A DNA stretch of 64,000 nucleotides from Parvularcula sp. BBD 1991-13 (lineage in GTDB: Bacteria; Pseudomonadota; Alphaproteobacteria; Caulobacterales; Parvularculaceae): NCBI GenBank assembly GCA_001657385.1, contig LYSZ01000002.1, positions 310,001 through 374,000 on the forward strand. The letters are read 5' to 3'. Every line of letters begins with the position of its first letter. The first letter of the stretch is position 1. A model generated the notes under the pieces. The model saw only the letters and a list, made by a program, of their open reading frames with translations, was not told the origin of the DNA and did no database searches. Shown here in pieces: positions 27,645 through 30,782 of this stretch. A program made the position numbers and the translations under genes.

Positions 27645-28712
27645 ATGCGCGTGGGGTTGATTGGTCTCGCCGCGGCGGCCGCGGCTTTCGGCGCCTATGT
27701 GCTCGCCAATCTGGTCCCGGCGTCCGGCGTGTTCGCCGATCTTCGCCCGACGCTTGTGGAGCGGTGCGTGCGCGTCGACATTGCGCCGGGTACTGAAGAT
27801 GTCGCCGTCGACCCGGAGCTGAACGCGGCGTTTGTCTCGGCGGGGGACAGACGCGCGTGGTTCAACGACGGCGCAGCGGCGGGCGGCGCGCGGAACGGGA
27901 TCTACCTGATGGATCTTGACCCGCCCCATGCGGTGCGGCGCGTTTCGCCCGCCGGCATGGAGGATTTCCTGCCCCACGGGATCAGCCTGTGGCGCGGGCC
28001 GAATGGCGGGAAAAGGCTGTTCGTCGTCAACCATCCTTCAACGGGCGAGGAGATCGTCGAAATTTTCGATGTCGCCGCCGACGGCGCCCTGACCCATGCG
28101 GAAAGCGTCTCGTTCGAGGCGATGCACGCGCCGAACGACGTGGCCGCGGTCGGTCCGCGCCAGTTTTACGCCACCAACGACCGGGGCTTCAAGGAAGGGC
28201 TCCTCTCCCTTGCCGAGGCGTATCTGGCCCTGCCGTTTTCAAGCGTCGTCTTTTACGACGGCAAGGCCGGGCGGATCGTCGCGGACGGGCTCGCTTATGC
28301 GAACGGCGTCAATCAGTCTAAAGACGGAAAAACCCTCTATGTCGCCGAGTTCCTGAAGCGCCGCGTCGCCGTATTCGACCGCGATCCGGACACCGGCGCC
28401 CTCGCGCATGCCGCAACCATGCCGACCCGAACCGGTCCGGACAATATCGACGTGGCGGCGGACGGCGCGCTCTGGATTGGCGGGCATACGAAAGTGTTCG
28501 ACTTTCTGGCCCATGCCGAGGACCCGTCCGCGGTCGCGCCGTCGCATGTGGTGCGCGTCGATCCCGAGACCGGCGAAAACGAGGATGTCTTCATCGACAT
28601 TGACGGCGTCATCAACGGCTCCAGCGTGGGCGCCGTCTCCCGGGACCGCCTGGTCGTCGGGGCTGTCTTTGACGGTCACGTGATGGTGTGCCCGCTGGGC
28701 GCGGACCGGTAA
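27645..28712 (+). CDS. Paraoxonase/arylesterase-like six-bladed beta-propeller protein
   Basis: A 355-residue protein with an N-terminal hydrophobic segment (residues 3-25), likely exported or membrane-anchored. The pattern of calcium-propeller lactonases is clear: LPHGISLW, NHPSTGEEIVEIF, the calcium-binding HAPNDVAAVGPRQFYATNDRGF and YANGVNQSKDGKTLYVAE. These align with the corresponding segments of serum paraoxonase 1 (HPNDI..FYATND; NGI..DGK..Y.AE). Members hydrolyse lactones or aryl esters; the natural substrate is unknown. GGGAG at 27633 supports the start at 27645. It stands alone between the symporter and ffh. Confidence 0.85.
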   Translation: MRVGLIGLAAAAAAFGAYVLANLVPASGVFADLRPTLVERCVRVDIAPGTEDVAVDPELNAAFVSAGDRRAWFNDGAAAGGARNGIYLMDLDPPHAVRRVSPAGMEDFLPHGISLWRGPNGGKRLFVVNHPSTGEEIVEIFDVAADGALTHAESVSFEAMHAPNDVAAVGPRQFYATNDRGFKEGLLSLAEAYLALPFSSVVFYDGKAGRIVADGLAYANGVNQSKDGKTLYVAEFLKRRVAVFDRDPDTGALAHAATMPTRTGPDNIDVAADGALWIGGHTKVFDFLAHAEDPSAVAPSHVVRVDPETGENEDVFIDIDGVINGSSVGAVSRDRLVVGAVFDGHVMVCPLGADR

Positions 28713-29014
28713 GGCCGCGTCTGTGGCGCCTGTAGCGTCCGCGACGTCTGCGGCGTTCGGGCGGATGACCTTGATCTCGGGCGGCGCGCCTTGCCTTTCG
28801 CGCGGGTTTCGCCTATAGGCTCCCGGTTTTTCGGGAAACCTGACTTTTCCCAGCATTTACCGGCACGACCCCCTATATGAAAAAAGGGACGGGGCCGGGG
28901 ATGCGCCGCCGCCGGGGTAACGCCCTCGCGGCGGTTCTTCGGCTTGTGCGGCCGGTCGCTGGCAAGCGTCGCCGCGGCGTCTTGGATGTTCGGTTCGCAG
29001 CCGAAAGGAGCGTT
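28713..29014. other. Intergenic region upstream of the ffh leader ORF
   Basis: About 300 bases of GC-rich sequence. I looked for the 4.5S SRP RNA because ffh follows, and did not see its conserved apical loop. The inverted repeat CCCGGTTTTTCGGGAAACC near 28826-28845 and the AT-richer stretch 28840-28890 are possible promoter-proximal elements of the ffh transcript. Confidence 0.35.
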
Positions 29015-29146
29015 ATGGTGGAAAGTCTTTCAGATCGGTTCGGGCCGATCGATGAAAATCCGGCGGTCGAGGGGCGAGCGAATGCGCGAGCCGGCGCCCG
29101 CCGCCATGTCGTCCGCAGCCGGGGATTGGAGACAGCCCTTGTTTGA
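29015..29146 (+). CDS. 43-residue leader ORF whose start mimics the Ffh N-terminus
   Basis: ATG at 29015 is preceded by AAAGGAG (29004-29010), one of the best ribosome sites in the window. The peptide begins MVESLSDRFGPIDENPA. Ffh itself begins [15 protein letters not shown], so the first 12 residues are a near copy, but in another reading frame and 124 bases upstream. After that the peptide is Arg/Ala-rich and unlike Ffh. Its TGA (29144-29146) overlaps the ffh TTG start at 29139, which would allow termination-reinitiation. It could be a real coupling leader, a remnant of a duplicated ffh start, or a decayed former start. No protein product is proven. Confidence 0.4.
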   Translation: MVESLSDRFGPIDENPAVEGRANARAGARRHVVRSRGLETALV

Positions 29147-30782
29147 TTCACTGAGCGACCGGTTAGGCGCGATCTTCGAGGGCCTTCGCGGCCGGGGCGC
29201 GCTTGAGGAAAAGGACGTCAGCGCGGCCCTGCGCGAGGTGCGCGTGGCGCTGCTCGAGGCCGACGTCGCCCTGCCGGTCGCCAAGGCGTTCATCGGCAAG
29301 GTCAAGGAGCGCGCCGTCGGCCAGGAAGTGCTGCGTTCCGTCACGCCGGGCCAGCAGGTCGTCAAGATCGTCCATGACGCGCTGGTCGAGATGCTGGGCG
29401 GCGCGGCGGACGCGCAGGCCGGCGAGGGGGCGGGCGAGGGCGCGCTCAACTTCGCGACGACCCCGCCGGCGGCGATCATGATGGTCGGCCTGCAAGGGTC
29501 GGGCAAGACGACCTCGACCGCCAAGATCGCCCTGCGCCTGCAAAAGCGCGACAAGAAGAAAGTCCTGATGGCCTCCCTCGACACGCGCCGCCCGGCCGCG
29601 CAGGAGCAGCTCAGGATCCTCGGCGAGCAGGCGGCGGTGAAGACCCTCCCCATCATCGCCGGCCAGAACCCGCGCGACATCGCCGCGCGCGCCATGGAGG
29701 CGGGCCGCCTCGGCGGATATGACGTCGTCATGCTCGACACCGCGGGCCGGCTTTCCATCGACGAACAACTCATGACCGAGGTCGCGGACATTCACGCCGC
29801 CACCGGTCCGATCGAGACGCTGCTTGTCGTCGACGCCCTCACCGGCCAGGACGCCGTTCAGACCGCGGAGAAATTCAAGGCGCGCGTGCCCGTCACCGGG
29901 GTCGTCATGACACGGATCGACGGCGATGCGCGCGGCGGCGCCGCCCTGTCGATGCGCGCGGTCACCGGCGCGCCGATCAAATTCGTCGGCGTGGGGGAAA
30001 AGCTCGATGCGCTCGACAGTTTCGAGCCCGAGCGGATGGCCGGGCGCATTCTCGGCATGGGCGACATCGTTTCGCTGGTCGAGAAAGCCAGCGAGGAAAT
30101 GGATCTCGCCAAGGCGGAAAAACAGGCCAGGAAGATGGCCAAGGGCGAGTTCGACATGGACGACCTCGCCGACCAGTTCCGCCAGATGCGCAAGATGGGC
30201 GGCATGGGGGCGATCCTGGGCCTGATGCCGGGCATGGGCAAGGCCAAGAAGATGCTCGATCAGGCCGGCGGGCTCGACGACAAGGAGATCGTGCGCCAGG
30301 AAGCGATCATCGGCTCCATGACGAAAAAGGAGCGCAAGAACCCCAAGCTCATGAACGCGAGCCGCAAAAAGCGCGTCGCGGCGGGTTCGGGGACCAGCGT
30401 TCAGGAAATCAACAAGCTCCTCAAGGCCCATCGCCAGATGGCCGACATGATGAAAAAGCTTGGCCGAAATGCCGGGAAGGGCGGCGGCATGAAGGGCATG
30501 GCGCAGCAGCTCGCCGGCATGGGCGGCGCCGCAGGCATGGGCGGCGGCTTGGGCGGAATGCTCGGCGGTCTCGGGGGCGGCGCGGGCGTCGGCGCGCCCG
30601 ACCCGTCGGCGCTCGCCGGCGGCGGCCCGGCCGGAAAGGGCGCAAAGGGCAAAAAAAATCAGCCAACAGAGGATATTGACTTCGACGCCATCGAAAAGGC
30701 GCTGTCGGGACAGGCGCCGATGCCGCCGGGCCTCGGCGGTCCGGGCGGCGGCCTGCCGGGACTTGGCGGCAAGAAAAAATAA
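29139..30782 (+). CDS. ffh: Signal recognition particle GTPase Ffh (SRP54), TTG start
   Basis: Binds signal peptides on nascent membrane proteins and hands the ribosome to FtsY. The 547-residue protein has the N domain (1-105), G1 GLQGSGKT (117-124), DTAGR (200-204), TRIDG (258-262, the T-K/R-x-D base site) and the Met-rich M domain (about 320-440). A Gly/Met/Ala tail of roughly 100 residues follows, making it about 95 residues longer than E. coli Ffh. Family homology starts at [11 protein letters not shown], encoded from TTG at 29139, with GGAG at 29128-29131 seven bases upstream. No ATG is in a suitable place except 29106, which lacks a ribosome site. rpsP follows after 35 bases. Confidence 0.95.

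Follow-up and report, generated by a model that had tools for sequence, protein, structure and literature searches.

The short ORF that ends on the start of ffh in the window, the 64,000-nucleotide stretch of DNA analysed here, is likely a former ffh start left behind by a local duplication. The body of ffh would now be read from the downstream copy, and the upstream copy would serve at most as a coupling or throttling leader. The features first needed are the following.

29004-29010, + strand: ribosome site (SD) AAAGGAG of the leader ORF, read from the sequence
29015-29146, + strand: leader ORF of 43 codons and TGA, with ATG at 29015-29017, described by sequence reading, shuffles and codon comparison
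within 29015-29146, + strand: first part of the leader ORF, which appears to descend from an ffh start
29015-29068, + strand: putative old ffh codons 1-18 as a decayed copy, with 40 of 54 bases as in the ffh start of a congener (G012)
29128-29131, + strand: GGAG, SD of the present ffh start, read from the sequence
29139-30782, + strand: ffh (SRP54/Ffh, 547 aa) with a TTG start, recognised by its SRP54_N, SRP54 and SRP_SPB domains

An ffh-like start upstream of ffh

Direct reading bears out the layout given in the initial annotation, in which the ribosome site AAAGGAG leads to ATG 29015 and a leader ORF that overlaps the ffh start in another frame. The leader TGA (29144-29146) lies within TTGTTTGA at the ffh start, and the eight bases 29139-29146 are common to both ORFs. 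From the leader ATG to the ffh TTG there are 124 nt, which is 1 modulo 3, so the frames differ. Two points are absent from that annotation: the leader frame is open beyond 29015, up to an ATG at 28877 (89 aa), and the TTG of ffh is preceded by an SD of its own, the GGAG listed above. The Pfam matches of the downstream ORF (SRP54_N 1.5e-21, SRP54 5.3e-67 and SRP_SPB 3.4e-32) identify it as Ffh. The gene is single-copy in the assembly, where the other two matches are partial, with 37% identity over residues 109-309 and 32% over residues 106-278.

The leader had also been said to imitate the Ffh N-terminus and then to diverge, and both statements hold. In a search of the three forward frames over 600 nt upstream, the leader MVESLSDRFGPI and the 12 N-terminal residues of Ffh give a BLOSUM62 score of 35, which none of 2000 shuffles reaches (mean 12.4, maximum 33). 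A six-frame scan of the window finds the leader as the sole match of at least 24 to these 12 residues, ffh itself aside. When we looked for such N-terminal copies up to 300 nt upstream of 835 candidate starts (ORFs of at least 100 aa), one other pair scored higher, at 37, and it is rich in Arg and Pro. Long open frames come with GC-rich DNA, and past about residue 12 the peptide is hardly recognisable, as one might expect if an arbitrary upstream ORF resembled Ffh by chance. Against that explanation stand the shuffles and three relatives with extra starts at nearly the same spacing, and we give it a negligible probability.

The serine codons of the similar stretch are AGT and TCA in the leader and TCA and AGC in ffh, so the leader was not recently copied, as DNA, from the start that ffh has today. 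Its closest counterpart is the native start of the G012 ffh, the one with 40 of 54 bases in common, where the serine codons AGT/TCA are identical. Since one base would join both frames, a sequencing or assembly indel could in principle hide an in-frame N-terminal extension of ffh. This is very improbable: ffh starts with ATG at the homologous MF[DEN] position in all 52 other family loci, and one congener, G003, is built alike and has a stop in frame ahead of its ATG. Among the 53 family loci, the TTG of the genome under study (G000) is the only non-ATG ffh start.

Extra ffh starts in relatives

The genus is Marinicaulis (now Hyphococcus at NCBI), family Parvularculaceae, order Parvularculales. 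The compared set consists of the 26 of 28 genus genomes with a readable ffh start (G001 and G009, where it is unreadable, are left out of this comparison) and 27 other family genomes; G066 has just 222 nt upstream of ffh, and G070 has the first 26 ffh codons only. Extra ffh starts lie upstream of ffh in four of the 26 genus genomes (G000, G003, G010 and G020), and none was found in the 27 other family genomes. They are at -124 in G000, at -123 in G003 (MFESLSDRLGSIFESLRAPSANAL...), at -124 and -212 in G010, and at -127 and -254 in G020. The G010 copy at -212 is cut off after codon 6, and the two G020 copies are nearly identical and match the ffh of that genome at 51 and 50 of 54 bases. A partial duplication of the ffh start had been proposed as the simplest origin of the ORF, and it gains support from these three congeners with similar spacing and from the box of other species' ffh on which the leader stands (see below).

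Among 80 named loci, a set that overlaps partly with the genus and family genomes, the 62 with a recognised start have no convincing copy up to 500 nt upstream (best score 23, L110 at -495). The start of the other 18 was not recognised by the search pattern, and some loci have less than 500 nt upstream (e.g. L065, L075, L085). In a wider look, the ffh start was found in 346 of 385 genomes of the class.

An ffh tree was made from the 36 of 53 rows with at least 500 nt of ffh body, which leaves out genus rows G005 and G018. On this tree, the four extra-start genomes are not a clade. Its well-supported branches require four changes or more, which is as many as shuffled labels need (mean 3.9). A single duplication would thus have to be followed by many losses or by transfer, the alternative being repeated events. 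A clade-wide conserved leader was rejected on the occurrence in four of 26 genomes and the scatter on the tree.

The upstream copy as the probable older start

Which of the two copies is older can be addressed through the sequence before each of them and through their codons. Two further features enter here.

28994-29014, + strand: ribosome-site box TTCGCAGCCGAAAGGAGCGTT (relatives have TTCGAGACCGAAAGG), probably that of the ancestral ffh start and now before the leader, recognised by its position in relatives
29114-29121, + strand: CGCAGCCG, a weak candidate for a partial second ribosome-site box (first occurrence at 28996-29003)

In G002, G008 and G017, ffh itself has the box TTCGAGACCGAAAGG 21 nt ahead of it, and G024 has a variant. 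At the same distance of 21 nt, the box precedes the first extra copy of G003 (the one at -123) and of G010 (at -212), and in G000, as TTCGCAGCCGAAAGG, it precedes the leader ATG. G020 has no box of this kind. For the old copy of G003, the preceding 35 nt align at a score of 28 with those ahead of ffh in G002 and at 8 with those ahead of the next copy in the same genome; for the first copy of G010 the scores are 22 (with G017) and 8. From the box before the first copy and these alignments, we infer that ffh probably began at the upstream copy originally in G000, G003 and G010, and that its body is now read from a later copy. The G000 alignment is weaker (best 12, with G017, vs 10 for its own pair), and the closeness of these two scores counts against the duplication, as does the non-significant palindrome remnant of G000 described in the next section.

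Over the 18 codons, the G000 leader and its own ffh differ by 6 synonymous and 10 replacement changes. The corresponding synonymous/replacement counts are 10/3 in G003, 9/4 in G010 and 2/2 in G020, and the mean between unduplicated ffh starts is 7.1/3.3. By this codon comparison the upstream copy of G000 is decaying.

Identity between leader and own ffh start is 0.65 in G003 and 0.61 in G010, as unlike as starts of different species, and such divergence is as compatible with a 5' end newly acquired from elsewhere as with an old duplication. By recombination or with a mobile element, the leader could be native and ffh codons 1-18 plus the spacer could have come from another lineage. Several observations agree with a foreign downstream start. 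The box of other species' ffh stands before the old copy, the extra-start genomes are scattered on the ffh tree, and the first 54 bases of ffh are the least similar stretch, both between G003 and G027 (0.63, with 0.78-0.93 in the next five stretches) and between G010 and G024 (0.65, with 0.70-0.87 in the others). In comparisons with unduplicated ffh starts, the G010 leader also comes closer (0.733) than the ffh of that genome does (0.664). However, the first 54 bases are low between unduplicated genomes too, at 0.730 (sd 0.063) vs 0.695 for genomes with a duplication, the four downstream starts have 39-42 of 54 bases in common, about what unduplicated pairs average (0.73), and a donor was not found. 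We consider a foreign start rather unlikely.

Before the TTG and before the leader, the upstream stretches of G000 have CGCAGCCG in common, with 45 of 2000 shuffles as good. For the paired upstream stretches of the other genomes, the shuffles as good, each out of 2000, are 22 in G020, 275 in G003, and 1654 and 231 in the G010 pairs. Among 52 unrelated ffh upstream stretches, those that score as well as the own pair number 3 for G000, 14 for G003, 38 and 18 for G010, and 2 for G020. A duplicated ribosome site was rejected because the own pairs do not stand out from the stretches of the 52 other genomes.

The spacer and a palindromic repeat

A GC palindrome with a loop of the form GAAN comes after old codon 18 in G003, in G020 and in the second unit of G010; behind it lies a T-rich stretch with TTTTGCCGCG at its end. 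Searched with E up to 0.1, some part of the G003 spacer was matched in 21 of 28 genus genomes, many of the matches being short or weak, and no match was found in G000. Nine sites chosen among the matches to the first part of this spacer describe a two-hairpin repeat with an AT-rich spacer between the hairpins, dispersed over several genus genomes with few copies found in each. At these sites (L288-L296) the stems vary yet stay self-complementary. Against the repeat consensus, the spacers of G003, G010 and G020 have 0, 0 and 1 of 2000 shuffles as good. The G000 spacer, with 100 of 2000, is non-significant, and it has one candidate feature.

29074-29088, + strand: GCGAGCGAATGCGCG, a possible palindromic-repeat remnant that resembles the first palindrome, with 14 of 15 bases of the consensus; weak

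Compared directly, the G000 insert resembles the two G020 inserts (2 and 6 of 500 shuffles as good) and weakly that of G003 (37 of 500), and no likeness to the G010 inserts was seen (425 and 358 of 500). An ordinary high-copy REP was rejected: the window has one hairpin with GCGAANGC and a stem of at least 6, vs 0.15 in shuffles. Y1_Tnp (PF01797) occurs in 9 of 28 genus genomes, 7 of them over the cut-off, in a search that does not tell RAYT from IS200. The Y1 transposase domain was not found in G000, G003 or G010, and G020 has one weak match.

Other places with such palindromes were seen. Two copies of the repeat lie in or between coding frames in G022 (L294), where the open frame changes across the first copy. 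In L172 (G005), L170 (G006), L171 (G019) and L167 (G026), the same palindrome is found in a conserved, apparently structured region with at least one copy of a 27-bp repeat, which reads SPSAKALKL in one frame and in G005 adjoins apparent NADH dehydrogenase genes. No Rfam family over threshold was found for this region in the four loci.

The order of events that we propose is as follows. A local event would have duplicated the ffh start, about its first 18 codons, leaving some 70 nt between the copies, where three relatives hold the dispersed palindromic repeat. The ffh body would then have come to be read from the downstream copy, which in G000 begins with a TTG, and the upstream copy would have become a short dead-end ORF, now decaying in G000. 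If so, the translation start of an essential gene has moved at least twice in this genus, or was gained and then lost again, and the old start was left behind as an upstream ORF. The feature is thereby largely explained and is of modest interest in itself.

Overlap of the leader stop with the ffh start

Because the strong ribosome site is kept and the stop lies over the new start, ribosomes of the leader would end on the ffh start. Those entering at 29015 may reinitiate there, although ffh also has its own GGAG. Translational coupling of the leader and ffh through the overlap is thus possible from the layout of the two ORFs. The stops of all six leader ORFs in the genus, units that are partly identical by descent, lie at the next start, five of them 5 nt after and one 6 nt before its first base. 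Given the phase, the fraction of shuffled spacers that end there too is 0.06 for the G003 unit and 0.43-0.74 for the other five, and ATGTTTGA itself gives a stop in the leader frame. The 10 genus genomes that lack both an extra start and a cupin gene served as a control: in 7 of them, and in 8 of 27 other family genomes, an ORF of at least 25 aa ends between positions -12 and +8 relative to the ffh start. ORFs that end at the ffh start are thus common, and not much can be read from the overlap by itself.

Another 12 congeners (e.g. G006, G007 and G027, loci L020, L009 and L019) have a small cupin gene between ffh and the ffh RNA described below. The G007 protein belongs to PF07883. At the ffh start these 12 cupin genes stop in TGATG in nine cases, 6 nt ahead in two, and with the same eight-base overlap in one. 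A cupin search with E up to 0.001 matches 12 of 28 genus genomes and none of the other 16. G015 seems to keep only the first cupin codons before ffh. A cupin gene and an extra start occur together in none of the 26 genomes.

A more ambitious reading takes the leader as a selected regulatory element, kept since the duplication because its peptide, similar to Ffh, or its coupled termination adjusts how much Ffh is made, as a decoy or throttle. It draws on the position of the six stops, on the cupin ORF that stops at the same position in 12 other congeners, and on the peptides of G003 and G010, which are well kept by the codon counts given above. Yet shuffled spacers and control ORFs often end at the same place, the leaders of G003 and G010 are perhaps just recent former starts, the G000 peptide is decaying, and the leader is confined to 4 of 26 congeners, with none among 27 other family members. 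We find a regulatory leader of this kind decidedly unlikely. The suggestion of a decoy or SRP-tuning leader in the initial annotation is not supported, given that 22 of 26 congeners and all 27 other family members are without a copy and start ffh with ATG, and that the peptide has diverged. That annotation had itself named relatives with no such ORF and an ATG-started ffh as evidence against its reading; such relatives disfavour a conserved function, and the duplication origin stands. Broader still, and a long shot in our estimation, is the idea that the genus repeatedly places ffh behind a coupled ORF, be it its own duplicated start or a cupin gene, and so, in a manner specific to this lineage, sets SRP levels below the conserved ffh RNA, with the palindromic repeat creating self-derived leaders by duplicating the start.

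Two other candidates were rejected. For an attenuator or terminator, no terminator-like or promoter-like site was found at 28650-29200, and RNA folding around the leader and the TTG (28990-29175) is not unusual (z -0.36). G003 and G010 have a hairpin followed by T-rich sequence, which G000 does not. For an SRP RNA mimic, the SRP RNA gene (RF00169) is elsewhere, at G000:C32:7777-7874. Among the readings set aside is also an integrase scar.

A structured RNA upstream of ffh

Further upstream of the leader ATG lies the RNA mentioned above.

28856-28934, + strand: structured RNA with two hairpins, a diverged relative of Rfam RF01793 'ffh' with an extra 5' hairpin, found with model R1 (E 1.5e-16; the model was built from 30 sequences, that of G000 among them)

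This match is the sole one listed for R1 in G000. The model has changes on both sides in 11 of its 22 pairs. In genomes of the same order, a grouping that we take to be the GTDB Caulobacterales, R1 matches once per genome in 65 of 249: 46 Parvularculaceae, 18 members of a family f3 and 1 of a third family; four further Parvularculaceae genomes have no listed match. Where R1 matches outside Parvularculaceae (19 cases), the RNA ends 30-97 nt before an ffh start. Among 17 weak R1 matches in the named loci, 15 are within 200 nt upstream of ffh on the same strand; the exceptions are L105 and the second match in L086. In the extra 5' hairpin, the form of Parvularculaceae and f3, all 20 sequences used (14 of the 19 from outside the family and 6 from within it) form the five outer pairs, each of which has at least one both-side change, and the inner three-pair helix is formed in 83% of cells. 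By eye, the second hairpin of the ffh RNA looks duplicated beside a palindrome of similar type in G003 (L014), G014 (L011) and G061 (L179), which recalls the duplicated ffh starts.

The Rfam model itself has no match in 28700-29200 at E up to 10. It passes its cut-off in 3 of 62 family genomes, each time at the place of R1, and misses the other 59; none of 14 control genomes pass, Caulobacter vibrioides being among the controls of the same kind. Applied to eight loci, it matched six, all overlapping R1, and neither of the two f3 loci. In the defining paper, the ffh motif is described as absent from sequenced Caulobacterales, and the regulation of Ffh and 4.5S RNA levels as not fully understood (PMC2704228). 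If f3 is Caulobacteraceae, which is a guess, the ffh RNA motif comes within experimental reach in tractable relatives.

Comparison with known systems

A literature search on start duplication with coupling returned no title on that subject, and ffh is not mentioned in the part of PMC1273637 that was available. The closest comparisons are with four known types of element.

REP and REPIN sequences are a class of palindromic repeats. The repeat seen here is like them in its two small hairpins, AT-rich joint and dispersal in several genus genomes. It differs in having few copies per genome, and its link to the duplication is by position only. The RNA upstream shares with the RF01793 'ffh' motif (PMC2704228) a covarying hairpin directly upstream of ffh, scores below the gathering score of that family, and differs from the motif by an extra 5' hairpin with a conserved internal loop.

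In a partial 5' tandem gene duplication, a truncated copy of the start of a gene lies upstream of it. We find upstream homology to the 5' end of ffh (0 of 2000 shuffles, and 18 codons when compared with G012), and two of the G020 copies form a plain 127-base tandem repeat. The present case differs from that class in that the copies are not joined directly, with about 70 nt between them (where G003, G010 and G020 match the repeat), and in that the old ribosome site stays with the truncated copy.

A regulatory leader would have a conserved peptide under purifying selection; here we find presence in 4 of 26 congeners and the changes counted as 6/10 in G000. The likeness to a translationally coupled upstream ORF is in the layout, a strong SD and a short ORF whose stop overlaps the next start by eight bases; the TGA does lie over the TTG, but this is not distinctive. 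What sets the leader apart from that class is that the ORF derives from the very gene it would putatively regulate.
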